NCBI GenBank assembly: GCA_017484135.1
Contig: JAFUTQ010000054.1
Location: 1-34,735, forward strand
DNA: 34,735 nucleotides
Direction: 5' to 3'
DNA from: Lachnospiraceae bacterium
Lineage (GTDB): Bacteria > Bacillota > Clostridia > Lachnospirales > Lachnospiraceae
Shown: positions 12,180 through 34,735 of the stretch, one piece after another
Numbering within the stretch: position 1 is the stretch's first letter
How the letters are laid out: each line of letters opens with the position of its first letter
Made by a program: the position numbers and the translations under genes
Notes under the pieces: model-generated
What the model was told of the DNA's origin: nothing
Databases searched by the model: none
Seen by the model: the letters and a program-made list of their open reading frames with translations, nothing else

Positions 12180-12201
12180 TTGGTTAGACATTTCTAACTA
12201 A
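12180..12201. promoter_or_regulatory. TTRGTTAG dyad operator, site 1
   Basis: TTGGTTAG-N6-CTAACTAA. The symmetry extends to 11-nt arms (12178-12203) with one mismatch. It lies over the likely transcription start, the geometry of a repressor site. Related dyads with the same 6-nt spacer are at 14243 and 26149. The half-site resembles DtxR-family boxes, but the spacing differs. Confidence 0.7.
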
Positions 12202-12274
12202 TTTTCAAATATTTCATGATCTGTAACAGTTTGAAAGCTGTGTTTTGAGCGATCATACAATTTTGGAGAAAAAT

Positions 12275-13480
12275 ATGAATATAAAAAACAGCATTTCATT
12301 TAAGAATTTTACGCGAAAGCCAGCCAGAACGGCTGCCTTATGTCTGTTGTCCGTTTTTTTGAGCTTTTCTGTATTGGGCGGTTCTCTGGTGGTGCTTGCC
12401 TTAAAGGGTGGTTTGGAATCGCTGGAAACAAGACTTGGAGCGGATATCATGGTGGTTCCGTATGAGGCCTCTACCAAGGCAGAGCTGTCCGGTATGGTGC
12501 TGCAGGGAAATCCCGGCTATTTTTATATGGATCGGTCGGTTTTGGAAAAACTGCAGGATATGGACGGAGTAAAGCAGGTGTCGGAGCAGTTTTATCTTGC
12601 AAGTGCAAGTGCAAGCTGCTGTTCCATGGCTGTCCAGATCATAGGTTATAATCCCGAAACAGACTTTACCATCAATCCCTGGATTGAAAAATCTTATAAG
12701 GGAACGCTGGGAGAGGGAGAGATCCTTGTGGGAAATGACTTGAATTTGTTTCCGGGAGATTGCGTCATGTTTTACGGGACACCTTGTACGGTTGCTGCGA
12801 AGCTGGATAAAACAGGTACCTATCTGGATACCAGTGTTTATACGGGGGAGGAAACCATCAAGACGTTGATCGGAGCCGCGAAGGAGAAGAAAATCTATGA
12901 TTTCGGTGAGGTGGATCCGGACAGAATTGTATCCTGTGTGCTGATCAACGTGGAGGACGGATATTCGGTGGAAGAGGTGCGTAATGATATTAAGCTTCAT
13001 GTTCGCAAGGTGGAAGCCGTGCAGACGCAGGATATGATTACCGATGTGTCCGGGCAGCTGACCGGCACTTCTGATTTTGTGATGGTTCTCATCGGGGTGC
13101 TGTGGATACTTGCGCTGCCCATTCTCGGAACCGCTTTTGTCATGATTGCCAATGAACGAAAAAAGGAATTTGCAATTCTTCGTGTGGCGGGAGCGTCGCG
13201 TAAAATTCTTGCCGCAATCATGATGAAGGAGGCATTGCTTATCAATGTGCTGGGAAGTCTGATCGGTGCGGTGCTTGCGGTTGCACTGACAGTATTATTT
13301 GGCAGTTTGTTGGAAAGCTCTCTGGGGCTGCCGTTTCTGCTTCCCGGAGCAGGGAAAATGGTCGCAATTTCCATTGCGGCGGTGGCAGTATCCGTTTTGG
13401 CAGGGACACTTTCGGCTGTAATTGCGGCATGGAGGATCAGCCGGATTGACACTGCATTGATCTTACGTGGAGAGAATTAG
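12275..13480 (+). CDS. FtsX/MacB-type ABC transporter permease
   Basis: A 401-aa permease. TM1 (about 22-44) is followed by an extracytoplasmic domain starting with GADIMVVPYEA and three C-terminal membrane helices (about 272-295, 320-350, 365-390). A vicinal Cys pair, C115-C116, sits in the extracytoplasmic domain within a run of alternating Ala and Ser, and could bind metal or thiol. ATG 12275 follows TTGGAG; an in-frame TTG at 12245 is less likely. It pairs with the ATPase that starts 7 nt after its stop. The GAxIxVVP motif is shared with the permeases at 17995 and 19307, so it is probably a paralogue of that system with an unknown cargo. Confidence 0.88.
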   Translation: MNIKNSISFKNFTRKPARTAALCLLSVFLSFSVLGGSLVVLALKGGLESLETRLGADIMVVPYEASTKAELSGMVLQGNPGYFYMDRSVLEKLQDMDGVKQVSEQFYLASASASCCSMAVQIIGYNPETDFTINPWIEKSYKGTLGEGEILVGNDLNLFPGDCVMFYGTPCTVAAKLDKTGTYLDTSVYTGEETIKTLIGAAKEKKIYDFGEVDPDRIVSCVLINVEDGYSVEEVRNDIKLHVRKVEAVQTQDMITDVSGQLTGTSDFVMVLIGVLWILALPILGTAFVMIANERKKEFAILRVAGASRKILAAIMMKEALLINVLGSLIGAVLAVALTVLFGSLLESSLGLPFLLPGAGKMVAISIAAVAVSVLAGTLSAVIAAWRISRIDTALILRGEN

Positions 13481-13487
13481 AAGGATT

Positions 13488-14186
13488 ATGATAGTAAAAG
13501 CGGACGAAATAACAAAACAGTTTTTGAGAAAAAGAGAAAACAGTAATGTGTTCTATGCGGTGGAAAAAACGACAGCCGAGTTTCGGGGTGGCAATCTGAT
13601 TATGATCTATGGGCAGTCCGGAAGTGGGAAAAGTACATGGATGAATATGCTTGGCGGGATTTTGCAGCCGTCATCGGGACGTGTGCTCTATGACAGGACA
13701 GAGCTTTATGCAATGGATGATGATACACTTTCAAAATTTCGCAATCAGCACATCGGTATGATCCCGCAGGGGCAGACGGCTATTCATTCGATGAATGTGC
13801 GGGAGAATATTCTGCTTCCGTTTTCTCTGTATGGAAAGGAAATTTCCGCGGAGACCGGGGAGCGGGCGGATCGTATGCTTGAGGAAATGGGAATTGCTGA
13901 TTTGAGCGCAGTGATGCCGTCTGAATTATCCGGCGGGGAGCTCCGTCGGATGGCGATTGCGAGAGCGTTGATCCGTCAACCTGAGGTAATCTTTGCGGAT
14001 GAACCTACGGGAGATCTGGATGATGAGAATACCCGCACGGTGCTTTCCATCCTCCGCAGACAGGCGGATATGGGGAAGCTGGTCATGGTTGTGACTCACG
14101 ATCGGGAGGTGGCGGAATTTGCGGATTTGACCTATCGCATGTCCGGCGGAAGGCTGTGTCTGGAAGAACCGGAGCAAATAGTTTGA
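13488..14186 (+). CDS. ABC transporter ATP-binding protein (LolD/MacB type)
   Basis: A 232-aa ATPase partner of the permease at 12275. Walker A is GQSGSGKS, the Q-loop region reads MIPQGQ, the signature is LSGGE, Walker B is VIFADEPTGD and the switch His is in VVTHD. ATG 13488 lies 7 nt behind the permease stop; a GTG at 13467 overlapping the permease is the alternative start. The subfamily works with FtsX-like permeases and need not transport small solutes. Confidence 0.92.
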   Translation: MIVKADEITKQFLRKRENSNVFYAVEKTTAEFRGGNLIMIYGQSGSGKSTWMNMLGGILQPSSGRVLYDRTELYAMDDDTLSKFRNQHIGMIPQGQTAIHSMNVRENILLPFSLYGKEISAETGERADRMLEEMGIADLSAVMPSELSGGELRRMAIARALIRQPEVIFADEPTGDLDDENTRTVLSILRRQADMGKLVMVVTHDREVAEFADLTYRMSGGRLCLEEPEQIV

Positions 14187-14242: not shown

Positions 14243-14264
14243 GCGGTTAGGCAAGACTAATTAA
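14243..14264. promoter_or_regulatory. TTRGTTAG dyad operator, site 2
   Basis: GCGGTTAG-N6-CTAATTAA, 7 nt after the -10 of the FTR1 operon. It shares GGTTAG, the central CA, CTAA and TAA at the same positions as site 1. Confidence 0.65.
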
Positions 14265-14299: not shown

Positions 14300-15856
14300 A
14301 TGCATAGTATGGGTAATTCTGAAACAAGACTCTTTCATCGCAGAATGGCCGCGGTCTTCACAGCTTTTGTGGTTGCCGTTGCGATACTTTTACATACAGG
14401 CTATATTGTGTTTGCTGATGAGGCGGGCTATTACAAAACATGGGATGCCTATAAGGAGTCAGGGCAGCCGGCATCAACGTGGAATGATGTGGTTGATGCG
14501 ATGGAGCAGGTGCTGGATTATGGAATTGATCTGTATGCCCAGGGCGATACAGACGGAGCTTACAAGACGGTAAGCGATGCCTACTATGGCTATTATGAGA
14601 CGACCGGTTTTGAGCGGATTGCGATGGGGTATATCTCCGGTGCCAGAAAATCGGAGATGGAGCTTCAGTTTTCGGCATGTAAATCGGTGGCCAAGAACAA
14701 AGGCTCTGAGGAAGATTATAATCAAGAGGTGGAAACGCTCAAGTCGATGCTTCGTGAAGATGCAAATCAGCTGGATGGAGTCACAGGCGATGACAGTGAT
14801 TCGGAAAGTGATTCCAGCAGCGAGGAAAGCGGCAGCAGTGACAGTAGCAGCAGTACCTCCGGTCAGTCAAGATCGGCTGCTGCGGCAACCTTTATCGCCT
14901 GCTTTTCCATCATCCTGAGAGAGGGATTTGAGGCGATTCTGATTGTCGGCGCGATCATTGCATATCTCGTTAAGTCGGCGGGAGAGGATAAGAAAAAACG
15001 AAAGAAGCTGGTATATCCGGTATATTGGGGTTCACTGGCGGGCATTGCTTTAAGCTTTGTACTTGCATGGCTTCTGAATATCCTCAAACTGGCAAACAGT
15101 GCCTCGCAGGAAATTATTGAGGGTGTCACTGCGTTGACGGCCGTATTGGTGCTTTATTATGTAAGCAACTGGATGTTGTCGAAGTCTGAGACGGATGCGT
15201 GGACGAAATATATTAAATCCAAGGCGCAGGAATCCACCAAATCGGGAAGTACGTTTGCGCTTGCGTTTACTGCGTTTCTTGCAGTATTTCGAGAGGGCGC
15301 CGAGGTTGTACTGTTTTTCCAGCCGATGCTGGCGGGAGACAATATCAGCTCGGTATGGATGGGACTGATCATTGGATTTGTATGTCTGATCTTTGTTTAT
15401 ATTGCGATTAACCTGTTGAGTCTGAGGATTCCGATCAAGCCGTTTTTTGTTGGAACGAGTATCTTGATGTTTATCATGTCGATTTCGTTCCTCGGTGCCG
15501 GGATCAAGGAGTTGATTGAGGGAGATGTACTTACTATGACGTCTCCGGACTGGCTTTCATGGATTCCGTCGAACAGTCTGATGGAGGTGCTTGGCATCTA
15601 TCCATGCCTGCAGACGTTGATTCCGCAGCTCATTCTGCTCATCATTACGATTGTTGTCTTTGTGATACAGACAAAGAAGAATCGGGCAATCCACGCTGAG
15701 GCAGAGAAAAAGCGCGAGGCAGAGCGGCTTGCGAAGGAAGAGGAAGAGAAGAAAGCACAGGAAGCGCAGCTCAGAAGATTGATCAGGGAGATTGTGCTTG
15801 AGGTGCTTGCGGAGTCAAAAAATGCGGACGCGGGTTCGGATGCCTCACAAGAGTAA
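14300..15856 (+). CDS. FTR1-family high-affinity iron permease
   Basis: A 518-aa protein that carries iron across the membrane, in this family coupled to Fe(II) oxidation and transport as Fe(III). A signal peptide (about 1-39) is followed by an extracytoplasmic helical domain (40-160, with a YYGYYE motif) and a Ser/Asp-rich linker (164-190). The seven-helix permease domain has both iron motifs, REGFE (207-211) and REGAE (331-335). The tail is a charged cytoplasmic helix. GGAGAG precedes the ATG. It is the first gene of a long same-strand run in the order of the Campylobacter cj1658-cj1663 (P19) locus. Confidence 0.95.
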   Translation: MHSMGNSETRLFHRRMAAVFTAFVVAVAILLHTGYIVFADEAGYYKTWDAYKESGQPASTWNDVVDAMEQVLDYGIDLYAQGDTDGAYKTVSDAYYGYYETTGFERIAMGYISGARKSEMELQFSACKSVAKNKGSEEDYNQEVETLKSMLREDANQLDGVTGDDSDSESDSSSEESGSSDSSSSTSGQSRSAAAATFIACFSIILREGFEAILIVGAIIAYLVKSAGEDKKKRKKLVYPVYWGSLAGIALSFVLAWLLNILKLANSASQEIIEGVTALTAVLVLYYVSNWMLSKSETDAWTKYIKSKAQESTKSGSTFALAFTAFLAVFREGAEVVLFFQPMLAGDNISSVWMGLIIGFVCLIFVYIAINLLSLRIPIKPFFVGTSILMFIMSISFLGAGIKELIEGDVLTMTSPDWLSWIPSNSLMEVLGIYPCLQTLIPQLILLIITIVVFVIQTKKNRAIHAEAEKKREAERLAKEEEEKKAQEAQLRRLIREIVLEVLAESKNADAGSDASQE

Positions 15857-15932
15857 TGCTATTTTGAACTTGTCAGATCATCGGCCATATGCCGGTCTGA
15901 AATAAATCGTATTTTTATAAGGAGGAAAAAAT

Positions 15933-16589
15933 ATGAAAAAGAAACTTGTCACAACAGTTTTGTCAATTGCAACGGTTGCAGCTTTTGCATTGACAGGATG
16001 TGGAAATGAATCATCAACTGCAGATGCCGGTGCCGCAAACGACACGGTAGCAGAGACTGAGACGGTGGAGGCTACCGTAACATCTGAGGCTTCTACTGCG
16101 CCCGGTGATGCGGCAGGTTTTACGGAGTACCCGATTTTTGAGGACGAAGAGGTTGGCTTCATCAATCTTTCTGCTGTATACTTCCAGCCTGTTCCTATGT
16201 CAAACGGCAATGAGAGTATCGATGGATTTGACATTCACCTTGAGGCAGATATTTCTGCACTGGAGAACAACCTTGGCTTCGGCGTGGGCGACTGGGTGCC
16301 TTATCTGACGGTAGATTACAAGGTGACAGGATCAGACGGAAACGTTGCTGCAGAGGGAACCTTCATGGAGATGAGTGCATCGGACGGCCCTCACTACGGA
16401 GCAAACATTGCGCTTCCGGACGCAGATACCTATAGCGTATCCTTTACCATTCACAGTCCGGAGGAGAACGGATACCTGCTTCATACAGATGCTGAGACAG
16501 GCCCGGGCGGCTCATTTGACGATTACTTCAAGGACGGAAATCTTGAGTACACATTTGAGGGATGGGATTATACCCCTCAGGAGTGGTAA
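15933..16589 (+). CDS. P19/Tp34-type iron-binding lipoprotein
   Basis: A 218-aa lipoprotein (lipobox LTGC, Cys23) with an acidic Thr/Ala linker, then an Ig-like Iron_transport domain (about 63-218). Metal ligands known from Campylobacter P19 can be placed: H102 and E104 (HLE), M147, D151 and H154 (the same 4- and 7-residue spacing as Met88, Asp92 and His95) and H184 in a HTDAETG motif. It is expected to bind Cu or Fe at the cell surface and pass iron to FTR1. AGGAGG precedes the ATG. The separate gene and intact site suggest a working system. Confidence 0.93.
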   Translation: MKKKLVTTVLSIATVAAFALTGCGNESSTADAGAANDTVAETETVEATVTSEASTAPGDAAGFTEYPIFEDEEVGFINLSAVYFQPVPMSNGNESIDGFDIHLEADISALENNLGFGVGDWVPYLTVDYKVTGSDGNVAAEGTFMEMSASDGPHYGANIALPDADTYSVSFTIHSPEENGYLLHTDAETGPGGSFDDYFKDGNLEYTFEGWDYTPQEW

Positions 16590-16610
16590 GTCGTTACGAT
16601 TTACAGACGG

Positions 16611-16703
16611 TCTGCGAAAATGTCTGTATCGCAGATTGCAGGAACATGATTTAGAAAACATGTGACGCCGTGCCGGATTTTGAACAGAAATCCGGCATGG
16701 CGT
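16611..16703 (+). other. Hairpin cluster in the iron operon leader between P19 and DUF2318 genes
   Basis: The main stem is 16 bp (16665-16680 with 16688-16703, one G-U, loop TGAACAG). A 7-bp stem TCTGCGA/TCGCAGA lies upstream at 16611-16635. No T run follows, so termination is unlikely. RNA processing or 3'-end protection of the FTR1-P19 message, giving more of those two proteins, is plausible. Confidence 0.6.
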
Positions 16704-16730
16704 ATTGGTGTTTGAAAAGAGGAAAAATAG

Positions 16731-17981
16731 ATGTTGAATTATCTGGTTCAAACAACGGAACAGTTAATCACGATGATGCTCATTGTGAGTCTGCTGCTTG
16801 CATGCAGCAGAACAACGATGTGTAAAAAGGGCGGGCTGCTTGCCCGGCTGGGTGTCATCCTTGGGGTTGTAAGCGCTCTTGTGATGGCATACCTAAAGGT
16901 ACATACCAATAAGATTGATACGGGTCTGTGGAATCTCAGGATTTTTACCGTGACTACGATTGCGTTTCTTGTGCTTTTGTTTTCCATACCGATCCTGCGA
17001 AAGATGAAAAAGCCGGAGGGCATGCTTCCCTCTGTTTGTATATTTCTCCTTATATTTTTGCTTTTGTTGTATACGCTGCCGGATTATTTTAACTTCCCTC
17101 ACGGGATTCTTTTGTCTGAGAGTACGGTGCTTTCCACTGCATTTTTATATAAGATGATCGGAGTGGTACTCGGAACAATCCTGACACTGGTTGCAGGCAT
17201 TGCGGGATACAGGCAAACGATTCAGCTGGAACAGGGAGCGCGATTTGCTTTTGTGATCCTGTGTCTGTTTTTCAATGCGGTCAGGCAGATCTGCGCCATG
17301 CTTGGCATACTTCTGGCCAAGAGAATAATCGCGTCCAATCATACGCTGTTTGTACTGGCAAAATATTCTTCAAATTACAGCGATCTCTACATATATGCAA
17401 CACTGGCGGTGGTGCTGATCATACCGGTGCGGCTTCTGGTAAAAAGCTTTCATGTCAATGAGCCTTACAGCAATAACGCGGAAAGAAGAAAGATCATAGC
17501 CAGATGGCGAAAAATCAGAAGGTGGGGAATTACACTGATCAGCTGCCTTGTGCTGGTAATTCTGAATATGACAGTCATTGACGCTTATGCAAATCGTGTG
17601 ATCGAGCTTTCTCCAATCGAGGACGCCGTGATTGAGGATGGAAAGGTATATGTATCCTTTGATCAGGTAAGTGATGGGCATTTGCATCGCTTTGGATATA
17701 CGACAGAGGATGGGACAGTGATCCGGTTTATCGTCATCAAAAAACCGAATTCTTCCTCCTATGGAGTGGGGCTGGATGCCTGTGACATCTGTGGAGAGAC
17801 CGGATATTATGAGAAGGACGGACAGGTGGTATGTAATCTCTGTGATGTCGTAATGAATATCAATACGATAGGCTTTAAGGGCGGATGTAATCCGATTGTA
17901 ATTGATTATGAGATTCATGACGGGCATATTGTTGTGCCGATTGACGGGCTTTTAGAGTACGAGGCCGAATTCAAAAGATAG
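16731..17981 (+). CDS. DUF2318 membrane protein (Cj1660-like)
   Basis: A 416-aa protein with about eight membrane helices (residues 7-283) and a C-terminal extracytoplasmic DUF2318 domain. That domain has the Cys set C351, C354, C368, C371 and C386 (CDIC, CNLC, GGC), a probable metal or Fe-S/redox site. Homologues sit beside p19 and FTR1 genes in other bacteria, where they are thought to take part in iron oxidation/reduction. The biochemical role is not settled. It is followed by the FtsX-like permease after 13 nt. Confidence 0.88.
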   Translation: MLNYLVQTTEQLITMMLIVSLLLACSRTTMCKKGGLLARLGVILGVVSALVMAYLKVHTNKIDTGLWNLRIFTVTTIAFLVLLFSIPILRKMKKPEGMLPSVCIFLLIFLLLLYTLPDYFNFPHGILLSESTVLSTAFLYKMIGVVLGTILTLVAGIAGYRQTIQLEQGARFAFVILCLFFNAVRQICAMLGILLAKRIIASNHTLFVLAKYSSNYSDLYIYATLAVVLIIPVRLLVKSFHVNEPYSNNAERRKIIARWRKIRRWGITLISCLVLVILNMTVIDAYANRVIELSPIEDAVIEDGKVYVSFDQVSDGHLHRFGYTTEDGTVIRFIVIKKPNSSSYGVGLDACDICGETGYYEKDGQVVCNLCDVVMNINTIGFKGGCNPIVIDYEIHDGHIVVPIDGLLEYEAEFKR

Positions 17982-17994
17982 GAGGTTTGAGGCA

Positions 17995-19281
17995 GTGTTT
18001 ACCAGAATGATCCGCGGAACGTTGTTTCGTCAATGGAAAAAAATGATCATGATTGCTTTTACCATTGCTCTTGGGGCAAGTCTGGCGACGGCGATGCTCA
18101 GCGTCGTGCTTGATGTAGGGGATAAAGTAAATCAGGAGCTAAAGACTTATGGTGCAAATATTACCGTTGTGCCCAAATCCTCATCGGTATTAAATGATCT
18201 CTATGATATGGAAGGGGAAGGTGTGGGTGCATACTTAAGAGAAGACGAGCTCGGAAAGATAAAAACCATATTCTGGGCGTTTAATATTGTGGACTATGCA
18301 CCTTTTATCAATGTGGATGCATCGCTTCCCGATGGCAGTCCGGTCACAATTACGGGGAGCTGGTTCAATCATCACATGGAGCTCCCCACCGGGGAAGAGC
18401 TGGATGCTGGAATGAACAGTCTCAGGAGCTGGTGGGAGATCAAAGACGGAAAATGGATTGATGAGCAGGCAGAGACAGATGAAAAGGTTGCCATGATCGG
18501 AAGCGAGCTGGCAGCAAGGGAAGGACTTAAGGCAGGAGATACCATGCATCTTTCCGGTGAGGCCGGGGAAGGTGATTTTCTCATCGTTGGGGTATATGAG
18601 GCCGGTGGAGAGGAAGATGAGCATGTGTATATGCAGTTAAATGATGCACAGGAGCTGGCGGGACTGGATGGCTGCATCAACAGCATAGAGGTCAGTGCCC
18701 TTACCACACCGGACAATGAGCTGGCGATAAAGGCAGCAAAGGACCCCGGCTCTTTGACCGTAAAGCAATACGAGACATGGTATTGCACCGCGTATGTAAG
18801 TTCCATCTGTTATCAGATTCAGGAGGTAATTACGGATTCGGTGGCGTCCCCGGTCAGACAGGTGGCGGATTCCGAGGGAGCCATTCTGGAAAAGACAAAA
18901 CTTCTGATGGTGCTGATCACGATACTCAGCCTGATCGGTGCCGCGCTGGGAATCTGCAATCTCGTCACCGCAAGCGTCATGGAGCGAAGCAGTGAGATTG
19001 GACTGATGAAGGCAATCGGCGCCCAGAACGGAGCCGTCACAGGCCTGGTGCTGACGGAAATTATGCTGACGGCCATCGTCGGGGGAATCTTCGGGTTTCT
19101 GGCAGGAATCGGATTTTCCCAGATTATCGGACATACGGTCTTTAATTCTGCGATTACCATAAGACCGATGGTCATTCCTATCGTTGCGGTTCTTGTGACG
19201 ATTGTAACACTGGCAGGAAGCATACCGGCGATACGCATGCTGTTGAGATTGCAGCCGGCAGAGGTATTGCATGGAAGATAA
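17995..19281 (+). CDS. FtsX/MacB-type ABC permease, first of the iron locus pair
   Basis: A 428-aa permease with TM1 (about 18-40), a large extracytoplasmic domain opening with YGANITVVPKS, and three C-terminal membrane helices. The GTG start at 17995 is set by GGAGG 9 nt upstream; an ATG four codons later is possible. It corresponds in order to Cj1661 of the Campylobacter locus and probably forms a heterodimer with the permease at 19307. What the ABC part moves is unknown; it may drive conformational work on the surface proteins rather than import. Confidence 0.88.
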   Translation: MFTRMIRGTLFRQWKKMIMIAFTIALGASLATAMLSVVLDVGDKVNQELKTYGANITVVPKSSSVLNDLYDMEGEGVGAYLREDELGKIKTIFWAFNIVDYAPFINVDASLPDGSPVTITGSWFNHHMELPTGEELDAGMNSLRSWWEIKDGKWIDEQAETDEKVAMIGSELAAREGLKAGDTMHLSGEAGEGDFLIVGVYEAGGEEDEHVYMQLNDAQELAGLDGCINSIEVSALTTPDNELAIKAAKDPGSLTVKQYETWYCTAYVSSICYQIQEVITDSVASPVRQVADSEGAILEKTKLLMVLITILSLIGAALGICNLVTASVMERSSEIGLMKAIGAQNGAVTGLVLTEIMLTAIVGGIFGFLAGIGFSQIIGHTVFNSAITIRPMVIPIVAVLVTIVTLAGSIPAIRMLLRLQPAEVLHGR

Positions 19282-19306
19282 GCAATAGAAAGAAAAGGCG
19301 AAGAAT

Positions 19307-20449
19307 ATGAGTAAAAGAAGGATGTTTTTCCGCATGATCACGGCCTCACTGATGAGACGGCGTTCGAGGATGATCGTTGCCCTTCTTGCAATTGCAATTG
19401 GAGCAACGATCCTGTCCGGGCTTGTGACCATTTATTATGATGTGCCAAGACAGATGGGAGCGGAATTTAGAAATTACGGGGCGAATATGATCATTGCTCC
19501 GGTGGAGGAGGGCTTCACGGACAAGGCGTTTGAAGAGGGGATTGCATGTATTGCAGACGAGGATCTCGTAGGCGCAACGCCATACCGATATGAAACTGTC
19601 AGAATCCATGAACAGCCGCTGATGGCCGCCGGAACGGAGTTTGAGAGCGCAAAGAAAACAAGCCCCTACTGGCTGGTAGACGGCGATTGGCCGTCTTCCG
19701 GGTTCGAGTTGATGATCGGAAATAATATTGCCGAAAACCTTCAGATCAAGCCGGGAGAAACCGTCAGTGTACGGTATGAAAAGGAGTCCGGGGATAGCGA
19801 AGAAGTCTCGAATGAGGTAGATTTTACGGTGACAGGTATCTTGAGCACCGGTGGCTCGGAAGAGGATTATGTATATATGGCGCTGTCTGATATGGAGGAG
19901 CTTACCAATGAAAAAGGCACACTGGATCTTGCAGAGCTCAGTGTATCGGGAGGCTCGGAAAAGCTCAATGCTTATGCAGACAAGATCAACAGCGGCGCCT
20001 ACGGATATGATGCAAGGCTGGTAAAGCGTGTCACGGCTTCCGAAACCACGGTTCTTTCAAAGCTGCAGGCGCTGGTGCTGCTGGTAACGGTGATCGTTTT
20101 GGCGTTGACCATGATCTGTGTTGCAACCACCATGACGGCTGTTGTGACAGAGCGGCGCAGAGAGATCGGACTTCGGAAGGCGATCGGAGCCTCGGATGCC
20201 AGCATCATCAAGGAATTTATGGGAGAGGGAATGATGCTGGGAGCCGTAGGAGGAATTTTAGGTTCCTTTGTGGGCTTTTTGTTTGCGCAGGCGGTCAGCG
20301 TCAATGTGTTCAGCAGTTCCATCTCATTCCGGCCGCTGTTGGTTCCCATCACAATTATTGTTTCCATCGCAGTGACTGCAATCGCCTGTCTCTTTCCGAT
20401 CAGAAGTGCGACGGCAGTTGATCCGGCATTGGTATTAAAAGGAGAATAA
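19307..20449 (+). CDS. FtsX/MacB-type ABC permease, second of the iron locus pair
   Basis: A 380-aa permease with the same topology as its neighbour: TM1 about 18-40, an extracytoplasmic domain starting YGANMIIAPVEE, and three C-terminal helices. Its cytoplasmic loop before the second helix (RRREIGLRKAIGAS) is the typical coupling segment of the family. It starts 25 nt after the first permease and ends 5 nt before the ATPase. It matches Cj1662 in gene order. Confidence 0.9.
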   Translation: MSKRRMFFRMITASLMRRRSRMIVALLAIAIGATILSGLVTIYYDVPRQMGAEFRNYGANMIIAPVEEGFTDKAFEEGIACIADEDLVGATPYRYETVRIHEQPLMAAGTEFESAKKTSPYWLVDGDWPSSGFELMIGNNIAENLQIKPGETVSVRYEKESGDSEEVSNEVDFTVTGILSTGGSEEDYVYMALSDMEELTNEKGTLDLAELSVSGGSEKLNAYADKINSGAYGYDARLVKRVTASETTVLSKLQALVLLVTVIVLALTMICVATTMTAVVTERRREIGLRKAIGASDASIIKEFMGEGMMLGAVGGILGSFVGFLFAQAVSVNVFSSSISFRPLLVPITIIVSIAVTAIACLFPIRSATAVDPALVLKGE

Positions 20450-20454
20450 ATCAC

Positions 20455-21147
20455 ATGAGTCTGTTAGAGTTAAAAAATGTATCAAAAATTTACGGAGAGC
20501 TTCACGCACTGGATGACGTAAGTCTTGCGGTGGAAAAGGGAGAATGGCTTGCCATCATGGGACCTTCCGGTTCCGGAAAGAGTACCATGATGAATATTAT
20601 CGGATGTATGGATAAGCCGTCTAAGGGAGAGGTGCTTCTGGACGGCGTGGATATTGCGAAAGAAAATGCAAAAAATCTTACCAATATAAGGAGAGACAAA
20701 ATCGGGTTGATCTTCCAGCAGTTTCATCTGGTAAATTATCTCAACGCACTTGAAAACGTCATGCTGGCACAGTATTATCATAGTATCCCGGATGAGAAGG
20801 AGGCACTGGAAGCGCTGGAACGAGTGGGACTTTTGGACAGGGCAAAGCATCTTCCCAGCCAGCTTTCCGGCGGTGAGCAGCAGAGAGTGTGTGTGGCAAG
20901 GGCGCTCATTAATCATCCCGAGATTATCCTTGCAGATGAGCCGACAGGAAATCTGGATGATTCGAATGAGGAAACGGTTGTGGAGCTGTTTCGGGTGCTT
21001 CACGAGGAGGGAACTACGCTGATCGTCGTGACGCATGATCCCGAGGTGGCGGACGTGGCTCAGCGAAAGATCGTACTCCGAAACGGAAGGATTGCGAAGC
21101 AGACGGTAAATGCGAACTTTACCGGACATATCCGGTTTGAGGTATAA
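20455..21147 (+). CDS. ABC ATPase of the iron locus
   Basis: A 230-aa ATPase with Walker A GPSGSGKS (about 36-43), Q-loop LIFQQF, signature LSGGEQQR, Walker B ILADEPTGN and switch His in VVTHD. It belongs to the LolD/MacB-type subfamily and matches Cj1663 by position. It should energise the permease pair upstream. A short C-terminal tail after the core is of unknown use. Confidence 0.94.
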   Translation: MSLLELKNVSKIYGELHALDDVSLAVEKGEWLAIMGPSGSGKSTMMNIIGCMDKPSKGEVLLDGVDIAKENAKNLTNIRRDKIGLIFQQFHLVNYLNALENVMLAQYYHSIPDEKEALEALERVGLLDRAKHLPSQLSGGEQQRVCVARALINHPEIILADEPTGNLDDSNEETVVELFRVLHEEGTTLIVVTHDPEVADVAQRKIVLRNGRIAKQTVNANFTGHIRFEV

Positions 21148-21170
21148 ATTTGGAAAGGAAATATGAAGTA

Positions 21171-21644
21171 ATGAAAATGATCAAAAAAAACCGATTGTAT
21201 CGAGGGACAGTTTTCACAGCAGCTTTTGCTGCGATGCTGCTCGGACTGGCCGGCTGCGGAAACGCAGATGTAACCTACACAGATGGCACATACGAAGGAA
21301 AGAGTCAGGTTTATACCAATGAGGACGATTCCGAGGAGGGAAACGGTTATGGAGTAGTGACCATTACCATAAAGGATGGTGCAATTTCTGAGTGTGAGTA
21401 CAGAACCTATGAGCCGGACGGGACGCAAAAGGATGAAAACTACGGAAAAAAGAATGGCGAGATTGCAAACAAGGATTACTATAATAAGGCTCAGAAAGCG
21501 GTTGCAGCCTGCGATGAATACGCCTCACAGCTGGTGCAGAGCGGCAGTGTAAAGGATATTGATGCCATCTCGGGGGCAACCATCAATTACAATGAATTCA
21601 AAGAAGCGGTAGACGATGCATTGAGCCAGGCGAAGGCAAACTGA
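21171..21644 (+). CDS. FMN-binding lipoprotein with a flavinylation motif
   Basis: A 157-aa surface lipoprotein (lipobox LAGC, Cys29) with one FMN-binding domain. The motif D131-A-I-S-G-A-T137 matches the Dxx(S/T)GAT site at which ApbE attaches FMN to Thr. It should therefore be a one- or two-electron carrier outside the membrane. ApbE is not in the window. ATG 21171 follows GGAAAGGA and gives a normal lipoprotein signal. It lies between the iron ABC genes and the fumarate-reductase-like genes, suggesting it links the two. Confidence 0.9.
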   Translation: MKMIKKNRLYRGTVFTAAFAAMLLGLAGCGNADVTYTDGTYEGKSQVYTNEDDSEEGNGYGVVTITIKDGAISECEYRTYEPDGTQKDENYGKKNGEIANKDYYNKAQKAVAACDEYASQLVQSGSVKDIDAISGATINYNEFKEAVDDALSQAKAN

Positions 21645-21651
21645 TAAACAG

Positions 21652-22173
21652 ATGAAGGGATTAAAACATGTTCTGGCATGTGGGGGAGGCGTTTTTTTTC
21701 TTTTGATCCTTCCCTTTTTGTGTACAGACTATTTTCAAGGATTGATCGCGGACGACGGGGTAGAGGCAGTCAGCAGCGCCTCGGTGGTTCTGGATCAGCC
21801 GTCGGGACAGTATGCGGTTCTGATCAATCAAAAAATGCATCCCGATGATAAGAAGCTGGCCGAATGGATCCGTTTCTTTCAGGGAGAGGATATCTCCTAT
21901 ATTTTTGAAGATATTTCCTGTTCTGTAGCAGACGGAGATACCGGAGCCATGGAAATGGCGAGAAGCTTTCAGTCGAGACTCCCGGAACACCAGATGGAGA
22001 TTTACACAGAGGATGCCATTCTTACCTTCTCGAGGGTGGATAGCGGAAAGTATGATATTGTGATCGTATCAAAGGAGTTTGCAGAGGTCTACGAAATATC
22101 ATTTGCTTCAGAGGATATGATCTATATTGAACTGGATGATGACGGCAACGATGACATTGCCAAGGAGATTTAG
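21652..22173 (+). CDS. Exported protein of unknown function in the iron/redox operon
   Basis: A 173-aa protein. A single hydrophobic N-terminal segment (about 7-25) is followed by a soluble, acidic domain with two Cys in total after residue 20 (one in FLCTDYF near 24, one in DISCSV near 89). It has no clear Shine-Dalgarno site; the ATG lies 7 nt after the FMN lipoprotein stop, so translation is probably coupled. I recognise no family. Its place between the flavin lipoprotein and the cytochrome b anchor suggests a membrane-tethered extracytoplasmic partner of the redox complex. Confidence 0.8.
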   Translation: MKGLKHVLACGGGVFFLLILPFLCTDYFQGLIADDGVEAVSSASVVLDQPSGQYAVLINQKMHPDDKKLAEWIRFFQGEDISYIFEDISCSVADGDTGAMEMARSFQSRLPEHQMEIYTEDAILTFSRVDSGKYDIVIVSKEFAEVYEISFASEDMIYIELDDDGNDDIAKEI

Positions 22174-22175
22174 AA

Positions 22176-22736
22176 ATGAGAAAGATAAATGCCACAGTCA
22201 GCGCGTTAATCATGCTGTTGTTCCTGCTGCATGCGGTGGCAGGGGCATTTCAGCTGGCAGGTATCATCCCGGGCGGGATGAAAGCGATACAGGGAATGGC
22301 ATGGCTGCTTGTGTTACTTCTTGTGGTTCATGTCGTAATCGGAGTTGTACTTACCATACAGTCCATTCGGATTTCCCGAAAGGCGAGAGTGTTTTATTGG
22401 AGGGAAAATCAGCAGTTCTGGATTCGAAGAATCAGTGGCTTTGCGTTAATGGCACTGATTTTTTATCATTTGTTTATCTTTGGACAGATCAACAGCGGGG
22501 GATTCCGGCTCCATGACTTTGGGACAGCAGAGCTTGTCGGACATATTCTGCTGGTGCTTAGTCTTGTGGTTCATGTGCTTTCCAATATCAAACCCCTCAT
22601 GTTGTCCTTTGGCGCGTATGGAATCCGGGCTTATTTAAAGGACATTCTTTTTGTGTTGTCGGTGGTACTGCTGGTTGCGGCGGTCAGCTTTGTGATATAT
22701 TATCTGAGATGGAATGTATGGTGGAGAGGAATGTGA
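22176..22736 (+). CDS. Five-helix cytochrome b anchor of a fumarate-reductase-like complex
   Basis: A 186-aa protein with five hydrophobic helices (about 8-30, 41-62, 86-107, 118-140, 155-176). Histidines H19, H52, H98 and H133 lie one in each of helices 1-4, the layout of the dihaem SdhC/FrdC subunits of Bacillus and Wolinella type. It should anchor the flavoprotein and iron-sulfur subunits and carry electrons across the membrane. The ATG lies 2 nt after the preceding stop, and its stop overlaps the likely GTG start of the next gene. Haem ligands are inferred from position only. Confidence 0.8.
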   Translation: MRKINATVSALIMLLFLLHAVAGAFQLAGIIPGGMKAIQGMAWLLVLLLVVHVVIGVVLTIQSIRISRKARVFYWRENQQFWIRRISGFALMALIFYHLFIFGQINSGGFRLHDFGTAELVGHILLVLSLVVHVLSNIKPLMLSFGAYGIRAYLKDILFVLSVVLLVAAVSFVIYYLRWNVWWRGM

Positions 22737-24382
22737 GCAGGAATATGACGGTAAATATTATCGGGGCAGGACTCGCAGGGCTGTCTGCAGCGCTTACACT
22801 TGCAAAACTAAATATTGCCTGTAATCTGGTTTCTCTGCAACCGTCGGAGCGCGCGCAGTCTGTGCTGGCGGCAGGCGGGATCAACGGAGCGCTGGATACC
22901 ATGGGTGAAAATGATACTGTCCGTGAACATATCAGCGATACCATGAGAGCCGGAGGATATATCTCTGATGAGGGCGCGGTGACAGATATTGCGGAGCACG
23001 CGCCGGATATTATCCGGGAGCTTGCGGGGCTTGGCGTTCCTTTCCACAGCGAGGGCAGCAGGCTTATTCTCAGAAATTTCGGGGGACAGAAGAAGAAGCG
23101 GACGGCGTTTGCAAAGAGCAGTACCGGAAGAATGATCATGACGGCGCTCATCGATGAGGCGCGGAAGTATGAGGCGAATGGAATCATCCGAAGATATGCG
23201 CACCATGAATTTATAAAACTAATCCAAAAAGAAGCTGTCTGTTGCGGCGCGTGGATACGGGACACCTATGCAGCAGGGGAACAGACTCCCATCTGCCTTT
23301 TGGGACCGGTGATTCTGGCAGTCGGCGGGATGAACGGGATTTTTCCGGAGATGACCACCGGAACCACCGCAAACTCGGGGGACGCGGTGGCTGCGGTTTT
23401 CAGACAGGGGGTTATGCTGTCGAATCTTGAAATGATACAATACCATCCGACCACCATAGCCATTGCGGGCAAGAGATGCCTGATCAGCGAAGCTGCGCGT
23501 GGCGAAGGCGGAAGACTTTATATCCGAAGAAACCATGAGAAATGGTATTTTATGGAGGACAGGTATCCGGAGCTGGGAAATCTCATGCCCAGAGATGTGG
23601 TGTCAAAGGAGATGGATTTCTGTTTGAGAAATACGGAATGCGAGCCGCCGGTGTATCTGGATATGACAGGGATTTCAAAGGAAATATGGAAAAGCCGACT
23701 GTCAGATCTGAGAGACGAGCTGATATACTATCTCTCAATTGATCCTGCCAAAAGTCCGATTCCGGTTTCGCCCGGCATTCATTATTTTATGGGGGGAATC
23801 GATGTAGACAGGTCTCATGCCACCGGTATGCCGGGCCTGTTTGCCGCCGGAGAATGCTGCTCCCAGTATCATGGGGCGAATCGGCTCGGCGGAAATTCCC
23901 TGCTTGGTGCTATTTATGGCGGAAAAAGGGCGGCGCTCAGCACGGCGGAGTATGTGAGCTCCGGGGGTGCAGAAGAAATTTTATATCAGCATGCATATCA
24001 TGAGGCACAGAATTCTTTGAAGGACATGGAACATGTATCTTCGGGTCTGGCGGTGTCGGAGAAACTGAAAAATAAAATCAGGGACATCCTTTCCGGCGCA
24101 ATGGGGATTGTCAGAAATGAAAAATCGCTTGAAAAGGCACTGTATGAATTAAATGAGCTGGAGGGGGAAGACCTGACCGAGAGGGAACAAAACAGAGTAC
24201 TGCTTGCAAGGGCGATTCTGTTGTCGGCGATCCATCGCAGGGAAAGCAGGGGGGCACATTTTCGGGAGGACTACCCGGCGCAGGATCCAAAATATCAGGG
24301 ACTTGTCACAGCACTTTTTGATGGGAAGCAGATCAAGGTGGGACTGAAACAGAGTACGATAGGAGCTGAAGGGCATAAGTAA
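22733..24382 (+). CDS. Fumarate-reductase-type flavoprotein subunit, probably non-covalent FAD
   Basis: A FAD enzyme of the FrdA/SdhA family, 549 aa from GTG 22733. It has the N-terminal Rossmann motif IIGAGLAG. The dicarboxylate site is complete: QYHPTT, SEAARGEGG, MPRDVVSK, IHYFMGG and HGANRLGGNSL. The His that binds FAD covalently in FrdA/SdhA is replaced by Gln (Q42, in the segment before AAGGING). The start is uncertain: GTG 22733 overlaps the anchor stop and follows GGAGAGG; ATGs at 22709, 22718 and 22745 are in frame. HYFMGG, not HYTCGG, argues against L-aspartate oxidase. Confidence 0.9.
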   Translation: MSRNMTVNIIGAGLAGLSAALTLAKLNIACNLVSLQPSERAQSVLAAGGINGALDTMGENDTVREHISDTMRAGGYISDEGAVTDIAEHAPDIIRELAGLGVPFHSEGSRLILRNFGGQKKKRTAFAKSSTGRMIMTALIDEARKYEANGIIRRYAHHEFIKLIQKEAVCCGAWIRDTYAAGEQTPICLLGPVILAVGGMNGIFPEMTTGTTANSGDAVAAVFRQGVMLSNLEMIQYHPTTIAIAGKRCLISEAARGEGGRLYIRRNHEKWYFMEDRYPELGNLMPRDVVSKEMDFCLRNTECEPPVYLDMTGISKEIWKSRLSDLRDELIYYLSIDPAKSPIPVSPGIHYFMGGIDVDRSHATGMPGLFAAGECCSQYHGANRLGGNSLLGAIYGGKRAALSTAEYVSSGGAEEILYQHAYHEAQNSLKDMEHVSSGLAVSEKLKNKIRDILSGAMGIVRNEKSLEKALYELNELEGEDLTEREQNRVLLARAILLSAIHRRESRGAHFREDYPAQDPKYQGLVTALFDGKQIKVGLKQSTIGAEGHK

Positions 24383-24385
24383 AAA

Positions 24386-25099
24386 ATGAACTATGAATTT
24401 GAAATACTGCGGAGAGAAAACAGCTCCGCAAAACCATATCTGCAAAACATATCTTATGAAACAGAAAATAAACGAGAGACGGTGGCAACAGCATTGACCA
24501 ATATCAACCGGGCCGCAGAAAACGCGCTTTTGGATCGCGAAGGCAGGCGTGTGCAGCCGATCCGCTGGGAGTCGGGCTGCCTGCAGAAGAAATGTGGCGC
24601 ATGCGCGATGGTGGTAAATGGAGTGCCGGGGCTTGCGTGTGACAGTTTTCTGGAGAAATGCCGGAAAAAGGGGCGGATTCGATTGGAGCCTCTGCGGAAG
24701 TTTCCGGTTGTGGCGGATCTGATGGTGGATCGGAGCATTCTTTTTGAAAATCTAAAGACGATGGAGATATGGAGAAAAGAAGCCGTTTCGCTGGATGAGA
24801 AGAGACGGCAGCTTGTCTATGAATCTTCCAAATGCCTTGCGTGCGGCTGCTGTCTGGAGATATGCCCGAATTACAGCTTTGGGGAAAGTTTTTTTGGCGC
24901 GGCTGCATTTGTGCCGACGACGAGGCTGATTACAACACTAAAAAAAGAGGAGCGGGAATCACTGCGAAAGGCTTACCTGAGTCATGTATATCAGGGGTGC
25001 GGGAAATCCCTTGCCTGTGCTGTGGTATGTCCGGCAAAGCTGAATGTGGAGCAGATGCTTGCAGCGTCCAACGCATTATCGTTATGGAGAAGACCGTAA
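24386..25099 (+). CDS. Fumarate-reductase-type iron-sulfur subunit
   Basis: A 237-aa FrdB/SdhB-like protein with all three cluster sites. The [2Fe-2S] ligands are C65, C70, C73 and C85. The [4Fe-4S] ligands are C150, C153, C156 and C215. The [3Fe-4S] ligands are C160, C205 and C211. The CxxCxxCxxxCP and C-x5-C-x3-CP spacings match the family exactly. It passes electrons between the membrane haems and FAD. It starts 3 nt after the flavoprotein stop, with a GAAGGG site inside that gene. Confidence 0.93.
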   Translation: MNYEFEILRRENSSAKPYLQNISYETENKRETVATALTNINRAAENALLDREGRRVQPIRWESGCLQKKCGACAMVVNGVPGLACDSFLEKCRKKGRIRLEPLRKFPVVADLMVDRSILFENLKTMEIWRKEAVSLDEKRRQLVYESSKCLACGCCLEICPNYSFGESFFGAAAFVPTTRLITTLKKEERESLRKAYLSHVYQGCGKSLACAVVCPAKLNVEQMLAASNALSLWRRP

Positions 25100-25114
25100 A
25101 CAGGAGGGGGATGG

Positions 25115-26059
25115 ATGAAGCGTAGAGGGAGAGCGGTAAAGATTGGACTTGCGGGCTGCGGGATATTGCTTGTGGTTTTTGCAGTCATTTTTTTTGTGAT
25201 CAGGCGCGTACCGGAGGAAAATATTGCGTATCACTACAGTGAGGATGTTTCCTTTATTTTCGGGAATGACAATCAGGTGGTTGCAAGCATCCGGAAAAGT
25301 CTGAAAGCACATGACCGTTTGATCATTCTGCGGTTTCAATCCGAGCAGGAGGTAACGGAGGATATCAGCGTGGTTGTGGGCGATATCATGAATTTTGCGT
25401 TGTACGATACCGACGCACCCGATGAGGGCGATTACCTGCGTTATCAGTATGGGGGGTATACCATTTCATACAGTCATGTTTCCCAGGAAAATGGGTATGA
25501 ATATGAGGTCGGAATCGAACCGGTATACTATACCACATGTGAGCAGGAAGAAGCGGTGGATGAAAAGGTCGCGCAGATACTTGAGGAATTAGAAATTTCC
25601 GACCGGATGCCGGATATAGAAAAGATCAGGCGGATTTATGGTTATGTCTATGAGCATGTGGAATACGATGATATACATAAAAAGAATGAAAATTACCATC
25701 TGAAAAGTACGGCGTATGGGGCTCTGATCTATGAGCGGGCCCTTTGCCAGGGGTACAGTGTTGCCATGTACCGGCTTCTCCGGGAGGCGGGCATTGATGC
25801 GCGTATCATCACAGGGTATGCCCGGCGCATGAACACGGATTCACAATCGGAGGTTTCCGATGCCACGGAATTTCATGCGTGGAATCTGGTGTGTCTGAAT
25901 GGAAAATATTATAATGTGGATGTCACATGGGATAAGCTGCTTGGGACAGAGGAGTATTTTATGAAAAGTGACCGCTCCTTTGATGATCATGTGAGAGACG
26001 CAGAATTTTTGACGGAAGAATTTTATCAGCGTTATCCGATGGCAGAGGAGGATTATTAA
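25115..26059 (+). CDS. Membrane-anchored transglutaminase-like protein
   Basis: A 314-aa protein with an N-terminal signal anchor (about 10-30) and a C-terminal transglutaminase-like domain with the papain-like triad C211 (ALCQGYS), H254 (EFHAWN) and D269 (NVDVTWD). The catalytic domain should face outside. Such proteins can be peptidases or protein cross-linkers; the substrate is unknown. A strong AGGAGGGG site 15 nt behind the iron-sulfur subunit gene suggests it is the last gene of the operon. No clear terminator follows. Confidence 0.88.
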   Translation: MKRRGRAVKIGLAGCGILLVVFAVIFFVIRRVPEENIAYHYSEDVSFIFGNDNQVVASIRKSLKAHDRLIILRFQSEQEVTEDISVVVGDIMNFALYDTDAPDEGDYLRYQYGGYTISYSHVSQENGYEYEVGIEPVYYTTCEQEEAVDEKVAQILEELEISDRMPDIEKIRRIYGYVYEHVEYDDIHKKNENYHLKSTAYGALIYERALCQGYSVAMYRLLREAGIDARIITGYARRMNTDSQSEVSDATEFHAWNLVCLNGKYYNVDVTWDKLLGTEEYFMKSDRSFDDHVRDAEFLTEEFYQRYPMAEEDY

Positions 26060-26150: not shown

Positions 26151-26169
26151 GTTAGATGCAACTAACCAA
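26149..26169. promoter_or_regulatory. TTRGTTAG dyad operator, site 3
   Basis: TTGTTAG-N6-CTAACCAA, directly downstream of the -10. It has the same half-site and spacer as the sites at 12180 and 14243, linking this gene to the iron locus. Confidence 0.7.
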
Positions 26170-26208: not shown

Positions 26209-26616
26209 ATGGAAAAACAGAAAAGAAAAATTAAAATCAGCGATATTACGTTTTTGGTTGTCAGTGCCATCTTTTTTATTGGTTCCCTGACCTTCTTTAA
26301 GCCGTGTGAGCCTATGGAGGACGGAGGGTGGATGACCTGCCACTGGGCAGGCCAGGCAGTGGCAGGGATTGCCGCTGTGTTGCTGGTAATTTCTATCCTG
26401 CATATCGTTGTCTCGAATGCTCAGATGAAAAGTGGTCTTTCCATGGCTGCAATTCCGATGGCGGTGCTTGCGGCTATCATACCGGGGCATTTGATCAATC
26501 TGTGCATGATGGATACGATGCGCTGCCATGCGGTCATGACACCGGGCACAATTGTTATGTCCGTGCTTGTGATTGCAGCGGCAGTGTTTGACATTGTTGT
26601 AAATCGCAAGAGATAA
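26209..26616 (+). CDS. DUF4418 family membrane protein
   Basis: A 135-aa protein with four hydrophobic helices. It has the conserved-looking Cys/His segments FKPC, MTCHWAGQA and DTMRCHAV, which I recognise as DUF4418. The Cys and His residues lie near the membrane surface and could bind metal. AAGGAAG lies upstream of the ATG. The shared dyad operator suggests it acts with the iron-linked ABC systems; a partnership with the permease at 12275 is my guess. Confidence 0.82.
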   Translation: MEKQKRKIKISDITFLVVSAIFFIGSLTFFKPCEPMEDGGWMTCHWAGQAVAGIAAVLLVISILHIVVSNAQMKSGLSMAAIPMAVLAAIIPGHLINLCMMDTMRCHAVMTPGTIVMSVLVIAAAVFDIVVNRKR

Positions 26617-29265: not shown

Positions 29266-29353
29266 CGATGGTGAAATAGAATAAGATATGTTATACTCTT
29301 AAGAAATGTAGGAGTTTGGAAAGTGATTGCGTTCAGAGAGGGGGCAATCTATT

Positions 29354-33793: not shown

Positions 33794-33848
33794 TTACACA
33801 TTATATTGTAGTGCGGATACATTTATTCTGTAGAAAGGAGGCTTGCAA

Positions 33849-34735
33849 ATGGATTTTAAGGTAGGTGTTGGAAAATCTGATTTTGCGGCACTCAGGGAAT
33901 CAGGTGATTACTATGTTGATAAGACGGAACTGATTTACGAACTTGTTAACGATACTGATAATGAGGTTACGCTCTTTACCAGACCACGCAGGTTTGGAAA
34001 GACACTCATGATGAGTATGATGGAGAACTTCTTCAGTATCCGAAAAAACAGCAAGGATATTTTTGGGGGGCTTGCTATTTCTGAGCATAAAGATTTCTGC
34101 AAGGAGTGGATGAATCAGTATCCGGTATTGTTTATTTCGTTTAAGGATGCAGAGGCTGATGCGTTTGATGTGGCTTATGCGAAACTGGGGAATGTAATAG
34201 CAGATGTTTGCAAGGGGATTTCTGATATTGGTTTGGAAAAAAAGGTAAATTCGTTTGATGTTGAAGTTTTCAACAGATTACAGGCTCAGACAGGAACAGA
34301 TGCGGATGTTCAGAACTCGTTAAAAACGATTATGCGTATGATGAACGCAGTTTATGGTAAGAAAGTCATTCTCTTGATTGACGAGTATGATGTCCCTCTT
34401 GCCAAGGCGAGCGAAAAGGATACCGCAAAGAACGGGTACTATTCCAAGATGCTTGATGTGATCAAGGGGATTATGAGTACGGCGCTTAAAGATAACGAAT
34501 TTCTCCAATTTGCGGTAATCACAGGATGCCTGCGCATAGCAAAGGAAAGCATCTTTACCGGGACGAATAACTTTGCGTCATATTCTGTGCTTGATGAAAG
34601 GTTCAGCAGTTTTTTTGGATTTTTAGAAGATGAGGTTGAGGCTATGCTTGAAGCTGCGGACAGAAGGGAAGCTGCGACGGAGATCAAAGAGTGGTATGAC
34701 GGATATGTATTTGGAAATTCTTATGTTTATTGTCC
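33849..34735 (+). CDS. AAA-ATPase-like protein, 3' end outside the window
   Basis: At least 295 codons are open to the window end. The AAA-ATPase-like (PF09820-type) start is clear: VGKSDFAALRESGDYYVDKT, then P-loop TRPRRFGKT and Walker B ILLIDEYDVPL. Family members usually end in a PD-(D/E)XK nuclease-like domain, which would lie beyond 34735. AAAGGAGG is 7 nt upstream of the ATG. It is related in plan to the protein at 29354. Confidence 0.88.
   Translation, partial: MDFKVGVGKSDFAALRESGDYYVDKTELIYELVNDTDNEVTLFTRPRRFGKTLMMSMMENFFSIRKNSKDIFGGLAISEHKDFCKEWMNQYPVLFISFKDAEADAFDVAYAKLGNVIADVCKGISDIGLEKKVNSFDVEVFNRLQAQTGTDADVQNSLKTIMRMMNAVYGKKVILLIDEYDVPLAKASEKDTAKNGYYSKMLDVIKGIMSTALKDNEFLQFAVITGCLRIAKESIFTGTNNFASYSVLDERFSSFFGFLEDEVEAMLEAADRREAATEIKEWYDGYVFGNSYVYC

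Follow-up and report, generated by a model that had tools for sequence, protein, structure and literature searches.

How does an iron permease of the FTR1 type dispose of electrons where there is no oxygen, and what are redox genes doing at the end of P19/Fet iron-uptake clusters? Both questions are raised by a locus in the genome of a Lachnospiraceae bacterium (GenBank assembly GCA_017484135.1; 116 contigs totalling 2.55 Mb; completeness 83%). The locus lies at positions 14300-26059 of contig JAFUTQ010000054.1 (C53 in our numbering), which was analysed over its entire length of 34,735 nucleotides and is referred to below as the window. Here, the genes of a P19/Fet importer are followed by genes for a putative haem-binding membrane anchor (CytB) and for relatives of the fumarate reductase subunits FrdA and FrdB. 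The reading we favour, with a probability of roughly 0.5 judged from sequence, is that of an iron-controlled importer equipped with a quinone-free wire that carries electrons inward to fumarate, the electrons probably coming from oxidation of Fe(II). The locus would offer a candidate electron path that is complete, names fumarate as the acceptor and has a testable direction. Its genes are as follows.

14300 to 15856, plus strand: FTR1 iron permease (FetM); PF03239, 90 bits; two REGxE motifs
15933 to 16589, plus strand: P19 (FetP) lipoprotein; PF10634, 154 bits
16731 to 17981, plus strand: DUF2318, FtrD-like membrane protein (FetA); PF10080, 102 bits; CxxC-x13-CxxC-x14-C
17995 to 19281, plus strand: FtsX permease 1 (FetB/C); family match
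19307 to 20449, plus strand: FtsX permease 2 (FetB/C); family match
20455 to 21147, plus strand: ABC ATPase (FetD); family match
21150 to 21644, plus strand: FMN_bind lipoprotein; PF04205, 35 bits; flavinylation motif DAISGAT
21652 to 22173, plus strand: membrane-anchored exported protein, distant relative of DUF6921/3NOH; flavinylation-like EAVSSAS
22176 to 22736, plus strand: CytB, five-helix anchor, distant relative of Sdh_cyt; four invariant His
22709 to 24382, plus strand: FrdA-like flavoprotein; FAD_binding_2, 243 bits, and Succ_DH_flav_C, 49 bits; FAD-binding His replaced by Gln, catalytic residues kept
24386 to 25099, plus strand: FrdB-like three-cluster iron-sulfur protein; TIGR00384, 100.5 bits against a cut-off of 88
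25115 to 26059, plus strand: transglutaminase-like protein; PF01841, 66 bits; N-terminal hydrophobic segment; Cys-His-Asp kept

A preliminary description of the DNA had placed these genes on one strand with short gaps, and family matches bore out both its coordinates and its gene assignments. Intergenic gaps do not exceed 25 bp from DUF2318 through FrdB, and CytB and FrdA overlap; the gaps between FTR1 and P19 and between P19 and DUF2318 measure 76 bp and 141 bp, respectively. The transglutaminase-like gene, which that description did not include, is present at seven of the nine loci that combine the two halves (see below).

The first seven genes are not new. The order FTR1, P19, DUF2318, FtsX, FtsX, ATPase matches that of the P19/Fet cluster, which Liu (2018) found identical in the first six genes in all 33 species examined (PMC6083913). 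The DUF2318 cysteines also fit the motif published for this cluster, CxxC-x13-CxxC-x14/15-C (PMC6083913). In most Proteobacteria gene 7 encodes a thioredoxin, whereas in Firmicutes and other phyla its product binds FMN (PMC6083913); the window carries the FMN version, i.e., the Gram-positive form, and P19 clusters with an FMN-binding gene were also catalogued by Meheust (2021; n=260; PMC8238504). As the cluster, FMN protein included, is thus described in these two papers, the preliminary claim that no system of this composition was known has to be narrowed. What is added are the anchor/FrdAB block and the DUF6921-like protein. No description of FrdAB with a cytochrome anchor in a P19 cluster was found among the literature matches listed, a search that covered mainly the main texts of open papers. 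The lipoprotein does have the D-x-x-[ST]-G-A-T motif announced for it and, with ApbE encoded in the same genome, it is predicted to be an ApbE target. At six loci (L028, L041, L065, L066, L067 and L069), a second tblastn match to the N-terminal region of FTR1 lies immediately 5′ of that gene.

The added block resembles a complex II. CytB shows five segments of high hydropathy, and its His19, His52, His98 and His133 are invariant across 11 aligned homologues, in agreement with the five-helix, four-His anchor originally proposed. Sdh_cyt matched nine of the 11 anchors at E values up to 5 (best, 2.5e-4) and left the window's own unmatched; a CytB profile matched the solved SdhC 6lum_C at 5.7e-4. 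By analogy with type B complex II, the four histidines are expected to bind two haems. The alignments also uphold the intact fumarate site and the three-cluster subunit: FrdB (best solved match, the fumarate reductase subunit 1e7p_B) has all of the cysteines for the 2Fe-2S, 4Fe-4S and 3Fe-4S clusters, and FrdA keeps residues matching H232, T244, E245, R287, H355 and R390 of E. coli FrdA, which we take to line the dicarboxylate site there (position 244 being S or T). Signal peptides were not seen by eye in FrdA or FrdB, and both are therefore expected in the cytosol. Assignment of FrdA as L-aspartate oxidase (NadB) was rejected, the protein having F-G-G in place of E-G-G and scoring 338 bits with TIGR00551 against a cut-off of 452.75. 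The exported protein encoded ahead of CytB is a more distant case. It scores 13.9 bits with DUF6921 (PF21914), under the gathering score of 26; its homologue at L029 is a member of that family (215 bits), of which 3NOH is a solved relative. A profile of 12 members, three of them of the L029 type, matches 3NOH at 2.4e-16, and the single window protein does not. In this group of P19-linked proteins the flavinylation-like motif is degenerate at eight of nine loci and canonical at L043.

Is the association of the two halves more than an accident of one contig? A search of 397 genomes from the window's family detected P19 in 13, counting the genome of the window itself, and all 13 neighbourhoods were read. 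Eight of them, from eight genera (G000, G147, G769, G775, G754, G607, G613 and G599), have, behind the FMN gene and in this order, the genes for the exported protein, anchor, FrdA and FrdB, with an extra FtsX/ATPase pair inserted between anchor and FrdA in G754. A ninth linked locus, L043, comes from a metagenome-assembled genome labelled Ruminococcus sp. RGIG9280 (G583) and is the sole locus obtained from scanning genome contigs with a single FrdA sequence. Gene identities to the window range from about 35 to 86% across the linked loci. Chance neighbourhood is ruled out, as the arrangement recurs in nine genomes including the window's. The conserved neighbourhood that the preliminary description called for therefore holds in part: the halves are joined at eight of the 13 family loci and split at the other five, and the Frd block is found at loci lacking P19 as well. 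The block and the iron genes are, for these last two reasons, separable modules joined in one lineage. Three of the five split loci (G072, G756 and G627) have the FMN protein only. The other two (G142 and G707) encode an exported protein that combines FMN_bind and flavocytochrome-c domains, the flavocytochrome-c-type proteins scoring 464 and 480 bits (cut-off 285). Genes for exported proteins of this composition lie at L041:11470-13428 and L070:18024-19814; a separate FMN gene was not found by tblastn at L041. Outside the family, P19 occurs in six further genomes of a class sample of 391 (four read; G403 and G526 not) and in 12 further genomes of a phylum sample of 279 (all read). Block genes were absent by tblastn (E 1e-3) from all 16 of these loci, the L095 contig ending about 2.3 kb past the ATPase and L090 showing a brief similarity (27%, E 1e-8) to the L070 flavoprotein.

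Which partner might the membrane anchor have in these hosts? None of the 14 genomes searched for MenA, among them all nine with linked loci, gave a match. MenD never exceeded its cut-off in 15 genomes, each of which gave sub-cut-off matches. No member of the MqnA family was found in G000; the family passed its cut-off, with low scores, in two of 15. ApbE was found in 14 of 15, the exception being G583, the source of L043. These results make a quinone unlikely as partner and exported flavin proteins a plausible one.

We propose that P19 and FTR1 would handle Fe(II) outside the membrane, and that iron oxidised for permeation would deliver electrons to DUF2318 and from there to the covalent FMN of the lipoprotein. 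Electrons would then reach the outer CytB haem, perhaps also by way of the DUF6921-like protein, cross the membrane through the two CytB haems and pass along the three FrdB clusters to the FAD of FrdA, where fumarate would be reduced to succinate in the cytosol. Fumarate would here take the place of the oxygen or multicopper oxidase used by FTR1 systems elsewhere. Oxidation of Fe(II) coupled to FTR1 would be the natural source of electrons, judging by Fet3/Ftr1 and, as predicted, FtrABCD.

The opposite direction of flow would make the block an assimilatory ferric reductase: electrons from succinate or another cytosolic donor would run through FrdAB and CytB to FMN and DUF2318, which would reduce Fe(III) for import. 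Reduction of Fe(III) suits FMN thermodynamically. Flavinylated proteins near iron transporters have mostly been read as reductases (PMC8238504, PMC6083913, PMC5449479). The sifABCDE genes of Bifidobacterium breve, which encode a pair of FtsX proteins, an ATPase and an FMN protein, are required under Fe(II) chelation, and the authors termed the FMN protein a possible ferric reductase (PMC5449479). Against such outward flow stands the chemistry of FrdA. The histidine that carries FAD is Gln in the window protein and in each of the 18 further relatives whose aligned sequence covers the site (L033 does not reach it), the motif reading R-[AS]-Q-S (C-T-Q-S in L035) versus R-S-H-T in E. coli FrdA and SdhA. 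Studied complex II enzymes in which FAD is not bound to His have a flavin of lower potential and reduce fumarate without oxidising succinate (PMC2680327, PMC9557727): the 8-methylmenaquinol:fumarate reductase (MFR) of Wolinella succinogenes, in which the FAD-binding His is absent, does not oxidise succinate (PMC2680327), and His variants of the E. coli and yeast enzymes lost this activity (PMC9557727). The bond is not the sole factor, since MFR with a restored bond still fails to oxidise succinate. Furthermore, family searches matched no NAD(P)H dehydrogenase domain among the block's own proteins. The flavoproteins at G142 and G707 are exported and of the reductase type, i.e., a second, differently built flavoprotein of that type at the same iron genes. 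Finally, sifE (FMN gene) mutants of B. breve are impaired by Fe(II) chelation and unaffected by ciclopirox olamine (PMC5449479), which shows that the FMN protein matters for Fe(II). For these reasons inward flow appears the most likely direction, as the preliminary description had held against its main rival, Fe(III) reduction; the missing FAD-His, on which it was silent, and the MenA and MenD results both favour its choice. We consider outward flow unlikely.

In Campylobacter jejuni, the place of the FMN protein is held by the thioredoxins FetEF, which may be oxidases according to assays (PMC10783030), and this too argues for inward over outward flow. The finding that thioredoxin-like, disulfide-acting proteins can occupy that position lends itself to a further interpretation, namely that the block merely sets the redox state of the DUF2318 cysteines or clusters, or of the FMN protein, with no stoichiometric flow of electrons from iron. 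A three-cluster, four-His complex would far exceed such a need, and this conditioning role seems quite improbable.

Iron control is suggested by a palindrome, TTAG-N6-CTAA, found three times in the whole window, each time 5′ of a gene. The flanking features concerned are the following.

12183 to 12198, no strand assigned: TTAG-N6-CTAA palindrome, 5′ of FtsX0
12245 to 13480, plus strand: FtsX0, FtsX-type permease; homologues adjoin many other P19 loci
13467 to 14186, plus strand: ATP0, LolD-like ABC ATPase
14246 to 14260, plus strand: TTAG-N6-CTAA box, about 40 bp 5′ of FTR1
26151 to 26166, no strand assigned: TTAG-N6-CTAA palindrome, 5′ of DUF4418
26209 to 26616, plus strand: DUF4418 membrane protein, common neighbour of P19 loci

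Within 450 bases 5′ of FTR1, the box is present in seven of ten loci (the nine linked ones and L041), compared with 0.09 on average after simple shuffling of bases. Its form resembles half of the DtxR/IdeR operator. The six sites that the genome has outside the window lie 5′ of a flavodoxin gene, of feoA-feoB (323 bp away), of a gene for an AraC-type regulator and of two ABC ATPase genes, the sixth being unassigned. This distribution suggests that the genes from FTR1 through the transglutaminase-like gene may be under one iron-responsive box. A Fur box was sought and rejected at the window's FTR1, none occurring within three mismatches in the 350 bases upstream. Perfect Fur-like 15-mers precede FTR1 at L091 and L093, which belong to other families, unlike in the window's family.

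The FtsX0/ATP0 pair (12245-14186) and DUF4418 (26209-26616), likewise new relative to the preliminary description, are neighbours that recur at P19 loci. DUF4418 gave tblastn matches (E up to 0.01) at 17 of 29 other P19 loci searched. Two stretches towards the end of the window (29327-30910 and 33843-34733) contain open reading frames with ATPase-like starts that appear, by eye, to be related to each other.

Several observations weigh against the proposed inward path, its iron control or the unity of the operon, including those on inheritance and on unlinked copies given in the next two paragraphs. Transfer of electrons from Fe(II) to a low-potential covalent FMN is uphill unless the Fe(III) formed is tightly bound. 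The 141-bp gap between P19 and DUF2318 contains a strong hairpin (16665-16703; 17-pair stem, weak T tail), possibly an attenuator, by which expression of FTR1 and P19 may exceed that of the rest of the operon. The box is missing 5′ of FTR1 in three of the ten loci, and it precedes FTR1 in two of 13 other P19 loci that lack the block (L059 and L098). In the window's genome, GTTAG-N6-CTAA has 15 strand matches (nine sites) versus 19 for a reversed control, i.e., no enrichment. The MqnA-family matches leave the futalosine route formally open in G147 and G072. Published opinion adds to this list, both in suggesting an iron-reducing role for the FMN protein (PMC8238504, PMC6083913, PMC5449479) and in the model for C. 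jejuni, whose authors have FetEF relay reducing power despite the assays that suggest oxidases (PMC10783030).

Whether the two halves were inherited together was assessed from trees and distances. The nine P19-linked FrdA sequences form one clade with 99/99 support (22-row tree without L033). The pairs L028+L069 and L068+L071 recur in trees of both the iron genes and the redox genes, which are otherwise poorly resolved. In Mantel comparisons with FtsX1 over the nine loci, distances correlate for the FMN protein (r 0.77; 5/5000 permutations) and the DUF6921-like protein (r 0.86; 1/5000) and not significantly for CytB (0.09), FrdA (0.42) or FrdB (-0.02). Upon removal of the divergent L065, FrdA tracks FtsX1 (0.59; 53/2000), and CytB (495/2000) and FrdB (463/2000) still do not. 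Exchange of the redox genes or saturation of their signal may account for this. The lack of correlation between the iron genes and the CytB and FrdB distances would also fit a general quinone-free fumarate reductase, fed from outside by a carrier that has nothing to do with iron and placed in the operon for its usefulness under iron stress. Related FrdAB genes with the same His-to-Gln change do exist at six loci that have no iron genes (L035-L040), and at five of them a small multi-His anchor is encoded alongside; no MenD over cut-off was found in the five of these six genomes that were searched. Yet the block stands directly behind the iron ATPase and FMN genes at nine loci, the P19-linked FrdA are a clade of their own, and an iron- and haem-rich complex would be costly under iron starvation. 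On balance, a role as a general sink is improbable, and an inward path fed by iron remains our preferred explanation for the nine loci.

Besides these FrdAB relatives in non-metal settings, a sister block without P19 has to be reckoned with. The anchor was found in eight of 200 family genomes, the window's included; G068 gave only a weak match with no other block genes beside it. Nearly identical copies of the sister block occur in five genera (L029, L030, L032, L033 and L034) behind a heavy-metal P-type ATPase, as at L029:5889-11995, where the order is P-type ATPase, DUF6921 protein, CytB, FrdA, FrdB. The L029 ATPase belongs to the cadmium family (513 bits; cut-off 313.5), and an ArsR-type regulator (95 bits in L029; cut-off 55) precedes the block in four of the five, the L034 contig beginning at the ATPase. 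Near-identity across five genera and genes near the L029 copy that resemble recombinases by eye indicate that the sister block is probably mobile; its anchor had no match among plasmid records. The L030 copy has masked bases within the ATPase, and the FrdA gene of L033 has one in-frame stop close to its start. The sister exported proteins carry a canonical DxVTGAT motif following the membrane helix. Given this motif in its DUF6921 protein and its position behind a heavy-metal ATPase, DUF6921-CytB-FrdAB may be a portable electron-sink module for metal redox outside the cytosol. Joined to the P19 genes, it might make an anaerobic ferroxidase in which import through FTR1 is paid for by fumarate, electrons from Fe(II) passing via FMN, two haems and an iron-sulfur flavoenzyme with no quinone involved; we put this forward tentatively.

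How does such a system compare with those already known? It shares with the fetMP-fetABCDEF/P19 cluster of Campylobacter and its FMN form (to which sifABCDE of B. breve is related) the order of the first seven genes, FMN as gene 7 and the DUF2318 motif. It differs in the haem anchor, FrdA/FrdB and the DUF6921-like protein, which the accessible accounts of that cluster do not mention. FtrABCD of Brucella and Bordetella likewise has a permease of the FTR1 type with partner proteins and, by prediction, links import to the oxidation of Fe(II) (PMC11966278); the oxidant proposed there is the cupredoxin FtrB, whereas the window has a predicted flavin, haem and fumarate reductase. FMN carriers feed reductases of the FAD_binding_2 superfamily in Listeria FrdA and Shewanella UrdA (PMC8238504), an architecture similar to that of two sister P19 loci. 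Those are exported single proteins, unlike the window's reductase, predicted to be cytosolic behind a membrane anchor. MFR of W. succinogenes is, as here, a complex II relative without covalent FAD; it is exported by the Tat pathway and uses quinol and an SdhE subunit (PMC2680327), whereas the window has an anchor of the cytochrome b type and A and B subunits with no visible signal peptide. The cytochromes of the DUF4405 family associated with flavinylation are haem membrane proteins proposed, as we propose for CytB, to join exported flavin carriers with the cell interior (PMC10979944). The window has no DUF4405 match, and its anchor, encoded together with FrdAB, is distantly related to Sdh_cyt. 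The closest parallel to the block itself is type B complex II (SdhCAB of Bacillus subtilis, FrdCAB of W. succinogenes), with its C-A-B gene order, five-helix four-His anchor, three-cluster B subunit and dicarboxylate site. All of these the window shares, and it departs from that type in the Gln at the FAD-His position, in hosts with no MenA match and no MenD over cut-off, and in its location among genes for exported flavoproteins. If our reading is right, relatives of complex II would have a role in bacteria that seemingly lack quinones.

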